DNA of 60,711 nt from Methanoculleus sp. UBA303. GTDB lineage: Archaea; Halobacteriota; Methanomicrobia; Methanomicrobiales; Methanoculleaceae. Position numbers and translations under genes: made by a program. Location of the stretch: NCBI GenBank assembly GCA_002501655.1, contig DANY01000009.1, positions 19,619 to 80,329 on the forward strand, written 5' to 3'. The notes under the pieces are model-generated. The model made no database searches, was not told where the DNA came from, and worked only from the letters and a program-made list of their open reading frames with translations. This document shows positions 14,615 through 23,836 of this stretch, piece by piece (within the stretch, counting starts at the first letter, position 1; each line of letters starts with the position of its first letter).

Positions 14615-15145
14615 GTGGTATCTCAAAATACTGGAGGCTCATACCACCTGCTTGTGAAGAAGTACAGCAGAGAGGACCAGATGACGATGGCAACCTGGGC
14701 TGCGGACTGCGCCGAGCGGGTGCTCCCGCTCTTTGAAGAGGCCTATCCCGGGGATGACCGGCCGCGCAAGGCCATCGAAGCGTGCCGGACGTGGGTCCGG
14801 ACGGGCGTGTTCAGGATGGCCGAGATCCGCGGGGCTTCGCTTGGGGCTCATGCCGCTGCCCGCGATGCGAAAGAGAACGACGCGGCCTGTTTTGCTGCCC
14901 GTGCCGCGGGTCAGGCGGTAGCGACCGCGCACGTTCCCCAGCATGCCTATGGGGCGGCCTACTATGCGCTTAAAGCCGTCGCGGCTGCGGACCCGGCCGG
15001 TGCTGCGGCTAAGGCTGCCGCGGAGCGGGAGTGGCAGGCGGGAAGGCTTGCCGAGGGGCTGAGAGAGGAGATCATGGGCAGGATTGCCGTTCAGGTACGC
15101 AGGGGCGGGGTCTCTATCAAACTGTGGAAGGGCGAGGGGTTTTGA
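14615..15145 (+). CDS. Putative immunity protein-like (Imm5-like), Ala-rich helical
   Basis: An Ala-rich, helical protein of up to 176 residues. It carries WAADCAERVLPLFEEAYP near residue 28, RPRKAIEA near 50 and an AHVPQHAYGAAYYALKA block near 110, a pattern I recognise from proteins annotated as putative immunity proteins (Imm5-like). Such proteins are thought to protect against a toxin, but no toxin gene is adjacent. Start is unclear: GTG 14615, GTG 14654 and ATG 14681 are all in frame, and GGAGG at 14633-14637 fits none of them well. Two palindromes precede it, and a broken second copy of its middle lies at 16511-16703. Confidence 0.6.
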   Translation: MVSQNTGGSYHLLVKKYSREDQMTMATWAADCAERVLPLFEEAYPGDDRPRKAIEACRTWVRTGVFRMAEIRGASLGAHAAARDAKENDAACFAARAAGQAVATAHVPQHAYGAAYYALKAVAAADPAGAAAKAAAEREWQAGRLAEGLREEIMGRIAVQVRRGGVSIKLWKGEGF

Positions 15146-16393: not shown

Positions 16394-16510
16394 TCGAGCC
16401 TCCACACCCTCCTCTCCTCCCGTTGCTAAATTGGTTCTGCAATTCCTCCATCGGAGATCAGGTCTCTGTAACTTCCTCCTCTGCTTGTTGTTAGGACTTG
16501 TTCTTCAGAA

Positions 16511-16703
16511 TGACCGAGACCCGCGGGGGCTTCGCTTGGGGCTCATGCCGCTGCCCGCGATGCGAAGGAACATGACGCGCCCTGCTTTGCTCTGCCCGCA
16601 CCGCGGGCTTGGCGGTGGCGACCGCACACGTCCCCCAGCACGCCTACGGGGCGGCCTACTATGTGCTCAAAGCCGTCGTGGCGGCGGACCCGGCCGGTGC
16701 TGA
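16511..16703 (+). pseudogene. Remnant copy of the immunity-like gene
   Basis: This stretch closely matches the middle of the gene at 14615-15145 (its bases about 14815-15005): the segments coding for GASLGAHAAARDA and QHAYGAAYY are recognisable. Extra and missing bases break the frame (for example GCGGGGGC against GCGGGGC), and both ends of the gene are missing. It is a decayed duplicate, not expressed as a whole protein. Confidence 0.75.
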
Positions 16704-16757
16704 TCGCGGCAACCACCCCCTAGACCAACCCTCGTCTCCTGCCTTCGCCCCGTCTCT

Positions 16758-17227
16758 TCACCCCACCTCCCGCAGATCCCTCCGCACCTGCCGCCGCATG
16801 TACCACTCCATCACTACGCCCAGGGCATGGTAGACCAGGTTGACCGGCACATCCACAAAGTAGCGCCTCCCCTTCCCGGCCCAGTAGGCGTGTTCCGCGG
16901 GAGCTGATTCGCCCAGTTTATCGCAGGGCGACCTCCCGATATGGAGCGCCATTACGTCGAACAATCCCGGCTTTGCCCGCGCTTCCCTCTGGAGTGCGGC
17001 AAGAAAGGCCTCTGCCACCGCCTGCAACTCCCGTTCGTTCTCCCGCACCCGGTGGGCAGGGAGAGGGCCCATGGTCACGTTGGAGGTGACCCCCACCCGG
17101 GCGGCAACCTCCGGTTCACCGCTGCCTCCTCCTGGAGAATCTCGCGGATCCGCTCGGCTGCGCGGTAGGTGTTTGCCTTCCGGGCGCTGCCCATGATGAC
17201 CAGGACCTTTATGGGCCGATCTTCCAT
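16758..17227 (-). pseudogene. Broken flavodoxin-like NAD(P)H:FMN oxidoreductase gene
   Basis: The start codes in one frame for a typical flavoprotein N-terminus (KVLVIMGSARKANTY, the FMN phosphate loop, from ATG 17227). The rest is in another frame and codes for a C-terminal part of the same family (EVAARVGV, PAHRVRENEREL and an Arg-rich tail to 16758). The central part, which in this family holds the flavin ring loop and often cysteines, is missing at about 17118. So the gene has lost an internal segment and its frame. Confidence 0.7.
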
Positions 17228-17671: not shown

Positions 17672-17805
17672 CGGGGCTGCTCAGGCGGGCTCCTTTCACA
17701 GCATAGCGATAAAGATAATTGATTGCCTGGGGGGGTAGTTGGGCCGCCAAGGCAAAAAGTTTTTCTTGTCAGGCTGATATTCCAACCGCAGAGGGGGGAA
17801 CGTAT

Positions 17806-17886
17806 TTGAGACATTATATTCTGTTCGCATTCATAGTGGCCCTGTTAGTGGGACACGGCCTTGCACAGGATGCGGAGGCGGGGTGA
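17806..17886 (+). CDS. 26-residue signal-peptide-like ORF
   Basis: A TTG-started frame behind GAGGGGGG that codes for a basic start, a hydrophobic core (YILFAFIVALLVGHGLAQ) and a short acidic tail. It looks like a signal peptide or a tiny membrane peptide. Its TGA is one base before the ATG of the next small ORF. It may be a truncated relic of a secreted protein or a leader peptide of the HEAT-CHAT operon. Confidence 0.3.
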   Translation: MRHYILFAFIVALLVGHGLAQDAEAG

Positions 17887-17887
17887 C

Positions 17888-18022
17888 ATGGAGACATTTC
17901 GCCAGGCGTTACAACAGAACGGATTCATATGGAGGATCTACCTTGAAGAGACGACAAAAACCGGGCCGTCCTACCCGGAGGCCGTGCACGATTGGGCTAT
18001 AACGTTCGGCCCGGAGAGTTAA
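17888..18022 (+). CDS. 44-residue ORF upstream of the HEAT-CHAT gene
   Basis: A short frame starting with METFRQALQQNGFIWRIYLE and ending 40 bases before the HEAT-CHAT gene. The arrangement TGACATG with the upstream 26-residue ORF suggests translational coupling. No family recognised. It could be a real small component, or the remains of a longer gene. Confidence 0.3.
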   Translation: METFRQALQQNGFIWRIYLEETTKTGPSYPEAVHDWAITFGPES

Positions 18023-18062
18023 AGGAGCCAGGATATTGAGGCCGATCCCCTGGAGGTAGTGT

Positions 18063-21000
18063 ATGAAGAGGGGAAAAAGCACCGCAATGGATCAGTATGT
18101 CCATGACCTGCAGCATGCTCCAGACTGGAGGGACCGAGAAGCCGCAGCAGCTTTCTTGGGAAAACTTAAGGACGATGAGTCCTTGCATGCTTTAATCGCT
18201 GCGTTATGTGGTGATTCTGATTCAGATGTCCGGATTTCTGCTGCCCGGGCGTTAGCGGAACGAGGAGACCCGCAGGCGACCGAGTCGTTTATTTCTGCGT
18301 TTAATAACGCTCTTGAATGTGGTGATGTTGCGGATGCAGAATTTAAAGAATATGCACAGACCCTGGGAAGACTCAAGGATAAACGAGCTATTTCTACTCT
18401 GATCATCGGTCTATCTAGCGAGAGGCCGGAGGCCCGGGAAATAGTTCGGGATATCCTGCTCAAAGAGGTTGGCACAGATGCCGTATCATCGCTTATTGAC
18501 GCGCTGGATAACCCGGATTTCCGGATTCTCATGGGGGCGGCCTCCATCCTATCGAGAATGGGTTACAGGGTTACCCCGCCGCTCCTGAAGGCTCTTGTTT
18601 CTCCTCATCCCTCCGTCAGGATGGGTGCCGCCATGGCGCTCGGTGATCTCAAAGCGGAAGAAGCGGTTCAGTCGCTGGTGGCAGCTCTCAAGGACGAGGA
18701 TCTCCAGGTCGTACAGGAAGCGGCAAAGGCACTGGGTCAGATCGGGCTGCCAAGTGTCGCCCTGCTGGTCGAAGGTTTGGCTGATCCCGACTTTCATGTC
18801 CGCCTTGAGGCCACGAGAACGCTCGGTCTCATCGATTTTGAAGAGGCATTTAAGGATGCGGACTGGAGTAGAACTATAACTGCTGCGATTGATGGCTTGC
18901 TGCCGGTAACGACGGATCAGGATCTGGATATACGAAAAGAGGCACTCCTGTCACTGGGGACCTTGGGGGGGATATTATCCAGGGATGGTATTTCTCATCG
19001 TGATCACTCCCTTGCCCTGGATGTTCTGGACGCCTTAACCGGGACGCTTTCGGATGAGGACGTCCGGGTAAGGGCATGGGCTGCAAAGGCACTTGGGCTC
19101 TATGGGACTGACGAGTGTGTTGCACCTTTGCGTGAATTGCTCCAGGGGCAGGATGTGCTGGTGAAGGAAGCGGCAGCAGATGCGCTCATGATGATCCCCA
19201 AACAGGAGGCTGTTGATACTATTATTGGTGGACTGGAGGATCCTGAGCCGGAAGTGCGGCGCGTTGTCGCCTCCTCCCTTGGACGCTCTTTGCGTAAGTC
19301 TCTCGAACAACCTCCAAGAAAATTACCGGCTCGGAGTCAACCTGTAAAAGCACTCAACTATATGAGAGTCCCGGGATCCGTTTCTACAATCACCTCAACT
19401 CTTGCGAAACGTGCGGATGATCCCAATGAACACGTGCGAAGGGAAGTACGTTTAGGTCTCGCAATGTTTGAGCGTGCTCTCCCTGGGGATCGAGGCCCGG
19501 TCAGGATGCACTGTGCTCCCGCTCCGGCACCTGCTGTGTTGCTCCCCTCATCCCAACCGGATCATACGGAAGAGAAAGAATCGCCGGTCGATACGGTCAT
19601 CGAGACCGCTGTGACCGGCCCGACTGAACCCCGATATGCGGATGTTGCATTCTTTGATGATGATCAGGTACGTCAGATCGCGACAGGAGAACCGTTAGTG
19701 CGATCCGAATGGTATCGCTTGCAGGTAACTGTCAAAACCAAACCTGCCGGTGTGCCGCCAACGGTTGGTGAACGTCGGCCTATCGAGGAGCCAAAGCGTG
19801 ACCGCCCGGTGACGATAATGGTCGTAGCAGAGGGGGATGATTTCGATATCGAGGAGAATGTACAGACATTCATACTTCCTCCCTCCGGGGATATTGCTGA
19901 TCCCGCCTGGTTCCGGGTACAACCAAAAAAAGAGACAACGGACTCGAAAGATTTGGCAAAGATCTCCTTGCGCCTGTTATGCGATTTCTTCTATCTTGAG
20001 AAGATTACCATACAGGCTGAGGTCATCGAAAAGAGAGATGAACCCCCTACTTCCAAGCTAGGTCTCGATAAAACGATTTCAATACAGTACGATCAGTTCG
20101 AACAGGAACCGCCGGATATGGCCGATATCCTTCCCCGGGACATGACTATCATCATTAAAAAAGTGGCCGATAAATATTTGCTGAGATTTTTATTTTACAA
20201 TAACATAAAACAGAAAATTGAGTTTTCAGCACCTCTTCGCCTTGATGAAGCGGCTCTGGAAAATGAGCTTATCATGGTGAGAACCCTCTGGTCCGAGATT
20301 GTAATGGATAAGACGTTCCTTCAGGAACTTACGTGCGATGAAGACGATTTCCGGAAGCACATCCGCAAATTGGCAGAGGAGGGAAGCAGGTTATGGAGTA
20401 TGCTGTTCAGATATGATACTAACAGCGCTCTCTTTTACATAGGCAACTGGTTGGAAGAACATCCCTTGCCCAGAGACAGCACCATCCAGATTATACCTGA
20501 TGACAAAGATTCAGCAGACTTCGTCTTTCCATGGGCACTGCTTTATGACCGAAAGGTGGAGGACGACAGAGATCCCGATCCAATGGACTTCTGGGGTCTC
20601 CGCTACTGTATAGAGCAGCGCGTGATCGATAAGCCCTCTACAGGTGACAATCCGGTCTATCTTGAGAAACTCAGACTCTGTTTTATGCTTTGGGACCAGT
20701 TCCCAAACAGCAAAGAGCATATACAGTTGTTCCATGATCTTTCTGATACAACCGGCCGTATCGAAGAAACATTACCTATCACTGACGCCAATGTATGCAT
20801 CAGACAGTTGAAATCCGATTGGGACATTCTCTACTTCTTTACACATGGTCATACAAAACCCCGAAAAACAATTGTCGGTTTGGAGGATTACCTCCAATTG
20901 TTCATCAGTAAGTATAAAAGTTACGCGAAGACCGATCCTCGAAAGAGGATTTTTGAGGATTTATACTGGGCGCTCACATCCGGGCAATATGAAAAGGATA

Positions 21001-21431
21001 GATCCTGGATAGAGCTCGCCTGCGGCAAGCTTTATCTCGACAAATTATATGCCGATAAGGATTGGACACTGAAAAAAACCCGGCCGATCGTCTTCCTGAA
21101 CATGTGTGAATCGGCTCAGGTTGTCCCTACCCTGAAAGAAAGCTTCATTCATGTATTTCTTAACAGGGGGGCATCGTGCGTGATTGGAACGGAATGCCCC
21201 ATGGCTGCTGTATTCGCCTGTCCGTTTGCAAAACAGTTCTTTAAAGATCTATTAGGGGGTGACAGTGTCGGGAAGGCTGTTTTAGGGGCGTCTCGCTACT
21301 TCATGGAGAGGAAAAATCCCCTTGGCCTTGCGTATACTGTTTATGGTTCGGTCATGCATTCCTTCAAGCCTCTACCGATACAACGGCCGGCAGAAACAGG
21401 TTCTGCGGATCAGCCTTCAGGCAATGGTTGA
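18063..21431 (+). CDS. HEAT-repeat protein with C-terminal CHAT protease domain
   Basis: A 1122-residue protein in three parts. Residues about 10-470 are some ten HEAT (PBS-lyase-type) repeats, such as VRMGAAMALGDL and VRAWAAKALGLYG, forming a curved helical scaffold for protein or nucleic acid binding. Residues 510-675 are strand-rich, like a beta-sandwich, after a Pro-rich linker. Residues about 680-1105 match the CHAT domain, a caspase-like cysteine protease: catalytic His928 in YFFTHGH and Cys1015 in FLNMCESAQ, with the family GASCVIGT segment behind. The dyad is intact. GGAGG lies before ATG 18063. The gene is AT-richer than its neighbours, suggesting transfer. CHAT proteases are often triggered by partner domains in bacterial immunity; the trigger here is unknown. 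Confidence 0.85.
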   Translation: MKRGKSTAMDQYVHDLQHAPDWRDREAAAAFLGKLKDDESLHALIAALCGDSDSDVRISAARALAERGDPQATESFISAFNNALECGDVADAEFKEYAQTLGRLKDKRAISTLIIGLSSERPEAREIVRDILLKEVGTDAVSSLIDALDNPDFRILMGAASILSRMGYRVTPPLLKALVSPHPSVRMGAAMALGDLKAEEAVQSLVAALKDEDLQVVQEAAKALGQIGLPSVALLVEGLADPDFHVRLEATRTLGLIDFEEAFKDADWSRTITAAIDGLLPVTTDQDLDIRKEALLSLGTLGGILSRDGISHRDHSLALDVLDALTGTLSDEDVRVRAWAAKALGLYGTDECVAPLRELLQGQDVLVKEAAADALMMIPKQEAVDTIIGGLEDPEPEVRRVVASSLGRSLRKSLEQPPRKLPARSQPVKALNYMRVPGSVSTITSTLAKRADDPNEHVRREVRLGLAMFERALPGDRGPVRMHCAPAPAPAVLLPSSQPDHTEEKESPVDTVIETAVTGPTEPRYADVAFFDDDQVRQIATGEPLVRSEWYRLQVTVKTKPAGVPPTVGERRPIEEPKRDRPVTIMVVAEGDDFDIEENVQTFILPPSGDIADPAWFRVQPKKETTDSKDLAKISLRLLCDFFYLEKITIQAEVIEKRDEPPTSKLGLDKTISIQYDQFEQEPPDMADILPRDMTIIIKKVADKYLLRFLFYNNIKQKIEFSAPLRLDEAALENELIMVRTLWSEIVMDKTFLQELTCDEDDFRKHIRKLAEEGSRLWSMLFRYDTNSALFYIGNWLEEHPLPRDSTIQIIPDDKDSADFVFPWALLYDRKVEDDRDPDPMDFWGLRYCIEQRVIDKPSTGDNPVYLEKLRLCFMLWDQFPNSKEHIQLFHDLSDTTGRIEETLPITDANVCIRQLKSDWDILYFFTHGHTKPRKTIVGLEDYLQLFISKYKSYAKTDPRKRIFEDLYWALTSGQYEKDRSWIELACGKLYLDKLYADKDWTLKKTRPIVFLNMCESAQVVPTLKESFIHVFLNRGASCVIGTECPMAAVFACPFAKQFFKDLLGGDSVGKAVLGASRYFMERKNPLGLAYTVYGSVMHSFKPLPIQRPAETGSADQPSGNG

Positions 21432-21470
21432 GATATGTGAATGAAAGCCTTGAGTTGTGGGAGTAACCTT

Positions 21471-21938
21471 ATGAAAAATTTAGAGGAAGCGGCTAAACCG
21501 GCGGTTGAACAACTTCTTCGTAAAGATGAAGATCAGTTGTATAAAGAGCTCGGAATGCGTACAAAGGCGCTCGCTCAGGATCCATACCTGATGACAGGAT
21601 CATTTGATCTTGAAGTTACATACGATATGGCAGTAATGGGACCAATGGATGAAATTCGCCAGTTCGGTCAACGGTTGTTCGATAGATGGACTGTGGAGGC
21701 ACATAAACTCCTCTGCGGAACGGAAGCGGAAGATGAGGAGGATCGCAAAAAACTCGGAAACGAGTTAGGTATTAGTGACATAGCAGTCGGAGCGCTACTG
21801 GCCGGAGTTCTGGTTTCACACCTGGGTATAGCGGCGGCCTTGGCAGCAGTTGTTGCTGCTATCATTGTCAAGCGGTTCTTCCGTCCTACGTACGAAGAGT
21901 TTTGTAAAGCGTGGACGAAAAATCTGCCAGAGGAGTGA
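21471..21938 (+). CDS. Small membrane-anchored partner of the HEAT-CHAT protein
   Basis: A 155-residue protein. It has a charged helical N-terminal half (MKNLEEAAKPAVEQLLRKDE, then LGMRTKALAQDPYL), a central acidic stretch (EAEDEEDRKKL) and, near residues 102-135, a long hydrophobic segment (ISDIAVGALLAGVLVSHLG followed by IAAALAAVVAAIIV) that could make one hairpin or one to two membrane passes, then a basic tail. ATG 21471 has GGGAG 7 bases upstream. It lies 39 bases behind the protease gene with the same AT-rich composition, so co-transcription is likely. It could be anchor, inhibitor or substrate of the protease; no known family recognised. Confidence 0.65.
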   Translation: MKNLEEAAKPAVEQLLRKDEDQLYKELGMRTKALAQDPYLMTGSFDLEVTYDMAVMGPMDEIRQFGQRLFDRWTVEAHKLLCGTEAEDEEDRKKLGNELGISDIAVGALLAGVLVSHLGIAAALAAVVAAIIVKRFFRPTYEEFCKAWTKNLPEE

Positions 21939-22001
21939 CTTCATCTCGGATTGTTTGACTATTGACAGACCACCGAGCGACAAAGTCCACACCTTTTTTG
22001 G

Positions 22002-22295
22002 ATGCTTCCTGGGCGCCTGGCAATCCTGACGGATGGGGATGCACAGACTTTCAACGATCAATGTGATGCTCGTTGTAAAGGCAGGATCCCGGAAGAGGGC
22101 GGACAGGTGGCGGAGATGCTGCTGGCGCACGAGATTGATGTGATCCTTGTGCGTCATTCGCTCTCGGGGAGAGCGGCCGGCTACGCGCTTGAGGCAGCGG
22201 GGGTTGAGATGAGGATGACCTCCGCGGCAACGCTTGCGGAAGTGATCGGGCATGTGGTCGGCCGTCACGGCATCAAAGTGAGAGTCACCCGGTGA
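22002..22295 (+). CDS. NifX/NifB-like ligand-binding domain fragment
   Basis: A 97-residue frame. From residue 31 on (EEGGQVAEMLLAHEIDVILV, then AAGYALEAAGVEMRMT and TLAEVIGHV) it resembles the C-terminal half of small dinitrogenase iron-molybdenum cofactor-binding domains, where a Rossmann-like unit is followed by a GI/GVE turn. The first 30 residues do not fit that fold and no ribosome site is obvious, so it may be the tail of a larger gene cut near 22000. The resemblance is weak, and other Rossmann-type domains are possible. Confidence 0.4.
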   Translation: MLPGRLAILTDGDAQTFNDQCDARCKGRIPEEGGQVAEMLLAHEIDVILVRHSLSGRAAGYALEAAGVEMRMTSAATLAEVIGHVVGRHGIKVRVTR

Positions 22296-22497
22296 GTCCG
22301 TGTAGATCCGGTGATACGTCAGCCGGGTGAGATTGGGGGAGGATGATTTCGTCATGGTTTCCCTCGATGCGATCTGCAGTTTGGGACGACCTTCCCGATA
22401 GGACCACAGGCCAACTATGGATGAATAAATATTGCGGCAGACCTCCAGCCATATCGGGCCCGACCGATGAGGCGACCCGCTCCCTTAGGTTACTCTG

Positions 22498-23836
22498 TCA
22501 TCGTCCTATCGCCAGGTTGATTATGAGCGCCGCACCGGTCAGGGCCATGACCCGCACAATCACCCATCCGAGAACGTTGCTCGCTCTTGAGTTGACGAAC
22601 CGGCCCATGATATCCTCCCTGTTCGCACTTCTGGTGACCAGCGCCATCAGTGGCGGCGCGGACAGGCCGTTCAGCGCTGCTGCATAGTAGAGTGCTGTGA
22701 TCGGGCTGATCCCGAGCAGGTCGAGGGACATGCCGACCAGTGCGGATAGGGCGATCACCACGTAGAACCCCGGAGCCCGGCCGGGTTTCTTGCCGAGCCC
22801 CTCTCTCAGCCCGGCTGTCTCGGCTACGGCATAAGCCGACGCACCGGCCAGCACCGGGACTGCGAGGAGACCCGTGCCGATGATACCGGCTGCGAAGAGC
22901 AGGTAGGAGAAGGTCACCGGCCAGCGGCCGCAGGGCCTCAGCTGCCTGTGATGCGGTCTGGATGGTGGTGATCCCGCTGGCATGCAGGGTGGCGGCTGTG
23001 GTGACGATGATGAAGAACATGATAATCTGGGAGAAGAACATCCCTATGACCGTGTCCCGGTTCATCTTAACGATACCCCGCCTCGTCACGCAAGGTCTCC
23101 TGGCGCCCATGTCGGGGATCCGGCCGTCGGCAACCTCTTCTTCGACTTCCTCGGACGCCTGCCAGAAGAACAGGTACGGGGAGATCGTCGTGCCCAGGAT
23201 TGCGACGATGTTGAGCAGGAAGGCAGCCGAGATCTCGATGTGCGGGATCAGCGTGGCGTAAAGAACCTCATCCCAGTCCAGCCGGACAACGAAGGCAGCG
23301 AGAACGTACGTGAAGAGGGTCAGCGCCAGGTACTTGAGGATTCTTGAGTAAATTTTGTAGGGGACGAGGACCTCGAGGGCGATGGTGGACCCCGTGATGA
23401 GAACCAGCCAGAAGAGGAACGGCAACCCCAGGAGCATCTGCGCCGAGGAGGCCATTGCTCCGAGATCCGCGCCGATGTTGATCGTGTTCACGACCACGAG
23501 CGATGAGACCGTTACATACAGCACCGGCTTAGGATAGTTATCGAGGATAACGCCGGCCAGCCCTTTCCCTGTCACCATGCCGATCCGGCCGCACATCTGC
23601 TGGATGACGATCATGAACGGAGAGGTGAACCAGACGAGCCAGAGCTGGCTGTACCCAAAGATTGCGCCTGTCTGCGCGTAGGTCGCGACACCGGAGGGAT
23701 CGTCATCGGCCGCACCGGTGATAAAGCCGGGACCGACTTTTCCGAGCAGCTTTTTCAGGTCTTTCAGGAGCACTGCGCTCCTGTTTCCCCGATATTGCTG
23801 CGCCGGCGGCGATGCGGGTTGCGGCGATTGCGCCAT
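22498..23836 (-). pseudogene. mntH: NRAMP-family divalent metal transporter, frameshifted
   Basis: Codes for a Mn/Fe transporter of the NRAMP family. The N-terminal two thirds are clear from ATG 23836: GPGFITGAADDDPSGVATYAQTG (the DPSG metal-site signature), about eight membrane helices and YLFFWQASEEVEEE. Near base 22912 one extra base shifts the frame: the first frame runs out into nonsense, while the second continues the transporter (FSYLLFAAGIIGTGLLAVP to LIINLAIGR, ending 22498). Either a genuine broken gene or a sequencing error in a GG run; everything else looks intact. Confidence 0.8.

Follow-up and report, generated by a model that had tools for sequence, protein, structure and literature searches.

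A pair of adjacent plus-strand genes lies in the 60,711-nucleotide (nt) stretch of Methanoculleus sp. UBA303 that was analyzed (contig DANY01000009.1; referred to as the window). The first encodes a 1122-amino-acid (aa) protein joining HEAT repeats to a predicted CHAT protease (18063..21431), and the second encodes a 155-aa partner with a predicted hydrophobic hairpin (21471..21938). HEAT is only one of many exchanged front ends on a constant CHAT module, an exchange that an initial annotation of this DNA had not foreseen. The pair is tentatively read, at a probability somewhat short of even, as an infection-triggered cell-death (abortive-defense) module with a swappable sensor front end and a CHAT protease that would cut its hairpin partner and lead to membrane damage. 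What the analysis shows is the protein fold as modeled, a dyad that is conserved, the pairing of the genes and their natural fusion, the swapping of front ends, patchy presence and a variable genomic site. We infer that the front end (in this case HEAT repeats) would serve as a sensor or bait for a trigger and that contact would free or realign the protease, perhaps by allosteric switching as in Csx29. The activated protease would then cut the co-encoded partner, at a best guess near Met56-Gly57, and the hairpin would enter the cell membrane and damage it, with the death of the cell being of benefit against viruses.

The description of the larger protein in the initial annotation was borne out. 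The open reading frame (ORF) is present, with GGAGG 6 nt ahead of its ATG (18063). Pfam HEAT_2 matches it at an E value of 9.4e-59 in 8 stretches, and CHAT (PF12770) matches at an E value of 2.4e-5, a narrow pass at 24.4 bits against a curated cut-off of 24. The HEAT-repeat front end covers approximately residues 1-480 (18063..19502), as delimited by the Pfam stretches and the front ends of 225 homologues; this part, exchanged among relatives, is the putative sensor. Further HEAT-repeat open frames of up to 1464 aa are found in the window genome (contigs C19, C36, and C52; L005-L009), with similarity confined to the HEAT part. The middle of the protein is strand rich in the structure model, as first proposed, and includes an Ig/macroglobulin-like domain (residues 522-660; 19626..20042). 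Residues 679-864 (20097..20654) align to the first half of protease cores of the separase/Csx29 type and lack the dyad; this division is suggested by the aligned ranges, with gingipain rows aligning from module residue 160 and the SAVED-CHAT row from 346. The domain carrying the dyad (residues 865-1106; 20655..21380) is modeled with the anticipated caspase-hemoglobinase fold. His928 (20844..20846; module position 409) and Cys1015 (21105..21107; module position 496) align to the CHAT dyad within the conserved motifs THGH and NMCESA. Among 226 aligned modules (225 homologues and the window), Cys1015 is conserved in 223 of the 223 rows with a letter in that column and His928 in 218 of 224. Domain, modeled fold and His-Cys dyad together predict a CHAT (caspase-like) protease.

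At least 225 distinct module proteins were listed from two database searches (110 from the first; 135 matches in the second, of which 120 were listed and 115 were new). Among the matches listed, precomputed Pfam assignments give HEAT as the commonest recognized front end, accompanied by GroEL (11, one a fragment), EF-Tu (3), HU (1), subtilase-type (2), PF26784 (4), and PF13620 (7) front ends and by astacin, LRR, TPR, TIR, SEFIR, and EAD7; many have no recognized front end. Some of these names are those that we take the Pfam families to bear. Exchange is evident between similar modules. Those of P0078 (TIR) and P0072 are 90% identical, while the front ends are similar only in 66 module-adjacent residues, and modules 79% identical (P0124 [subtilase] and P0115) and 72% identical (P0089 [EAD7] and P0081) carry front ends without significant similarity. 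Methanoculleus bourgensis P0066 presents the reverse case, being 88.0% identical to the window protein in the HEAT part, 43.7% in the Ig part and 53.0% in the CHAT part, with a break at approximately residues 500-560. A FastTree phylogeny of 142 modules has 9 label changes, 8 being the least possible, and adds little on swapping; in it, the GroEL versions cluster with L015, a locus that has the small partner gene (support, 100, with long-branch warnings).

Versions with GroEL, EF-Tu, or HU are known from protein sequence, and these may share the partner. Residues 2-535 of the P0152 front end match solved GroELs, and the score lies above the NCBIfam cut-off for GroEL (789 versus 582 bits), suggesting that this GroEL may be functional. 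The EF-Tu of P0144 probably has no working GTPase, because it falls under the NCBIfam cut-off (407 versus 522 bits), good alignment begins only at EF-Tu residue 71 and DCPGH has become DWPDR, a judgment that uses what we take to be the switch regions of EF-Tu. A relative of this EF-Tu part (42% identity) is encoded on a viral contig (L067). A possible, if doubtful, reading of such front ends is an inflammasome-like prokaryotic platform with integrated decoys, in which the constant CHAT protease would bear interchangeable copies of host proteins prone to viral hijacking (GroEL, EF-Tu, and HU) or generic sensor repeats (HEAT, LRR, and TPR). A bait touched by an invader would set the protease to work on the hairpin protein, and the cell would die. 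The GroEL, EF-Tu, and HU baits are here likened to the integrated decoys of plant NLR immune receptors.

The partner gene starts 39 nt past the protease stop if read from ATG 21471, the 155-aa form originally described, or 9 nt past it if read from ATG 21441 (165 aa); approximately 155 aa is the length of most partner relatives. Co-transcription of the two genes is likely, since the gap is short and no terminator-like site between them was listed in the scan. The AlphaFold model of the partner (mean pLDDT, 89.7) is all helical. A single long hydrophobic segment had been described; the hydrophobic character stands, and the segment is modeled as two helices (residues 103-118 and 122-136; 21777..21878). 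Structure searches found no solved structural relative of the partner, and their lists contain no gasdermin row, an absence that excludes nothing. The proposed cut region is residues 37-58 (21579..21644), a mostly non-helical conserved stretch containing Met56-Gly57, chosen by analogy with Csx30, whose cleavage falls within a loop (residues 427-429). Met56 is present in 54 of 61 aligned partners and Gly57 in all 61, and Gly66, Cys82, and Cys145 are also invariant outside the hairpin.

Pairing was examined at 37 loci in named genomes, from a search requiring one of two short conserved peptides. Ten (L010-L018 and L021) are of the window type, matching the module without the break at approximately 420-466 shown by the rest. 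Their hosts are Methanoperedens, Herpetosiphonaceae, metagenome-assembled genomes (MAGs) of Chloroflexi and Gemmatimonadetes, Rhodopseudomonas, and Tistlia, and the nine long enough for a tree form one branch with the window (support, 99). The partner domain starts 8 to 532 nt past the protease in eight of the ten and is fused to the protease in L011; L013 stops at a contig edge, and the one small gene in its genome lies 726 nt from the end of another contig. Whole-genome searches, run on 25 of the 37 genomes, detected a single small gene per genome in all 10 of the window type and no such gene in the other 15, and none was seen at the other 27 loci. The two genes thus occur together in both archaea and bacteria, as the initial annotation required of a true pair. 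Two further homologues (P0154 and P0159) are partner-protease fusions like L011, giving three natural fusions in all.

Other modules have other neighbors. An unrelated family, mostly of approximately 550 aa with hydrophobic segments, lies downstream (-3 to approximately 920 nt) at 22 of the 27 loci, two members being shorter ORFs, and the remaining five (L041-L045) have neither this family nor the small gene. The family follows a second, mostly cyanobacterial CHAT branch (L019, L020, L022-L040, and L046; e.g., L020:6283-7929), and two members scanned had no Pfam match. In a Rhodococcus plasmid, the gene next downstream of an LRR-CHAT gene encodes a 106-aa hydrophobic protein without similarity to the partner. 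The CHAT module therefore often has a membrane-type neighbor, from at least three families.

Target, inhibitor and anchor had all been suggested as roles of the partner, and of these, a separate inhibitor agrees less well with the three fusions than a target or an anchor does. That the partner inhibits the protease or serves as its antitoxin is very improbable: close coupling of the genes and fixed pairing would suit such a role, but fusion to the protease would not, and a hydrophobic hairpin is unexpected in a soluble inhibitor. An orphan small gene in genome G144 (L055:7732-8193, minus strand), 438 nt from a VIT-VWA gene with PGF-CTERM, is neutral on this question. It is rather unlikely that the partner serves as a membrane anchor or local sensor and is not itself the target, with the protease working at the membrane and cutting another host or viral protein or releasing its own front end. 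Fusion would keep the protease at the membrane, the unrelated membrane-type neighbors of other branches share location and not sequence, and front-end release by self-cleavage is the scheme that the authors of EACC1 propose. Nevertheless, the whole 155-aa partner is conserved, and its four invariant residues outside the hairpin exceed the needs of an anchor.

Both genes are patchily distributed. Among the 392 genomes of the window's phylum, 3 carry the small gene and 5 the CHAT module, three of the latter as weak partial matches, and two carry both; the module is found in 1 of 35 genomes of the window's genus. The small gene occurs in 7 of 251 genomes of the phylum of Herpetosiphon (one weak), 1 of 249 of that of the Gemmatimonadetes MAG, and 1 of 337 of the class of Tistlia, where the module (1 of 279) is adjacent in the same genome. 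In the window, the pair sits in a strain-specific segment of approximately 4.4 kb (17711..22095) between gene remnants, with no match at the site in six sister genomes (blastn; E value, 1e-5). The reported AT richness of the pair was confirmed: its GC content is 50.0% versus 60.3% for the window, a value as low in 4 of 1137 segments of the same size (50-nt slide, pair-covering ones included). The distance from DUF711 to shikimate kinase, measurable on one contig in 7 of 13 genus genomes drawn, is 2.8 to 11.4 kb and longest in the window; in two of the others the genes lie across contigs or at a contig end, and the rest lack one gene.

The flanking genes are broken, as first noted. The two nearest neighbors of the pair each correspond to part of a longer ORF in sister genomes. 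An Nramp transporter gene is split over two overlapping minus-strand frames (22490-23836 and 22498-22983; profile positions 1-253 in one frame and 253-357 in the other). Upstream on the plus strand, an Imm5-like immunity gene (14615-15145; E value, 6.7e-41) has a partial second copy (16502-16833; E value, 2e-5, just under the cut-off); five of the six sister genomes have relatives of the Imm5-like gene at the corresponding site. In another genome (G100), the pair stands amid genes matching HKD+Snf2, NERD+UvrD, and UvrD-PDDEXK models.

Regulated proteolysis in ordinary stress or envelope signaling, not defense, is an improbable explanation of the pair. CHAT-fold proteins with other roles, separase and the anti-sigma factor DdvA, are among the structures resembling the model, and HEAT repeats are common in the window genome. 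However, patchy presence, a strain-variable site, exchanged front ends including EAD7 and TIR, and the defense-type neighborhood in G100 argue against it. The defense or conflict role originally proposed is supported, short of demonstration, by the patchiness, the variable site, that neighborhood, the EAD7, TIR, and LRR front ends, and matches to PDC-M35B.

PDC-M35 is a PADLOC phage-defense candidate (PDC) (PMC12988326). The window small protein matches M35B models (E value, 4.1e-9); counting it, 5 of the 7 small proteins scanned match. The closest known kind of system is EACC1, a two-gene membrane-associated conflict system of a small membrane protein and a caspase with up to 50 alternative domains, including EF-Tu (Kaur et al. 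2020, PMC7159879). Shared features are two genes, a small membrane protein, a constant caspase-type protease, and many alternative domains, EF-Tu among them. In what is described of EACC1, however, the membrane gene is 5', the caspase is N-terminal with variable domains C-terminal, and the membrane protein has one transmembrane helix with alpha+beta extensions, whereas here the partner gene is 3' of the protease gene, the variable part precedes a C-terminal CHAT, and the partner is modeled as all helical with a hairpin. Membership was set aside on these differences in gene order, polarity, and modeled structure. No EACC1 match was found among Pfam matches of 61 partner members, a negative that counts only if Pfam has a model for EACC1.

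Other protease systems offer partial parallels. In the type III-E CRISPR Craspase, target RNA activates Csx29 and its catalytic residues are repositioned on activation; there, an RNA-guided complex drives Csx29 (TPR-CHAT), which cuts soluble Csx30, whereas the partner here has a hydrophobic hairpin (PMC10028731). In Canu caspase-nuclease loci, a downstream effector is armed through proteolysis by a caspase-family protease that has an Ig-like fold, and conserved glycines stand at the proposed cut places, as here; in Canu that effector is a nuclease and the Ig-like fold lies at the C terminus, whereas here the fold precedes CHAT and the partner is a hairpin protein (PMC12799240). The neighboring protease of bacterial gasdermins is likewise thought to arm an adjacent membrane-damaging protein, but the partner here is a 155-aa protein modeled as all helical (PMC13236601).

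Several points weigh against a cell-death module. The partner model gives the proposed cut region an ordered structure (block pLDDT, 83-91) that includes short helices at residues 38-41 and 53-56, and it marks no cut site, and hairpin helices of 15-16 residues are short for membrane crossing. The G144 orphan speaks against strict pairing. The matches to PDC-M35B are confined to the C-terminal half of the small protein and are lacking in L018 and L021, and PDC-M35A is absent from the 12 families matched by 33 CHAT proteins (E value, 0.001) and from the matches of the window protein. The scans made, covering part of the window genes, found no known defense system in the window. Activity, cut, toxicity, and phage trigger are predictions.

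That a membrane-associated caspase can bear swappable domains is already known in principle. Within the literature and databases covered, the features that appear to be new are the module, the partner family, the fusions, the occurrence in archaea, and the GroEL baits. If the proposed reading is true, a single protease chassis serves prokaryotes as the base for receptors with decoys, as NLRs do in plants, and the identity of each front end would point to a host process attacked by viruses. Bait sensing would become testable by fitting one module in turn with GroEL, EF-Tu, and HEAT front ends, and the partner family would represent a new class of protease-armed membrane effector in archaea and bacteria.
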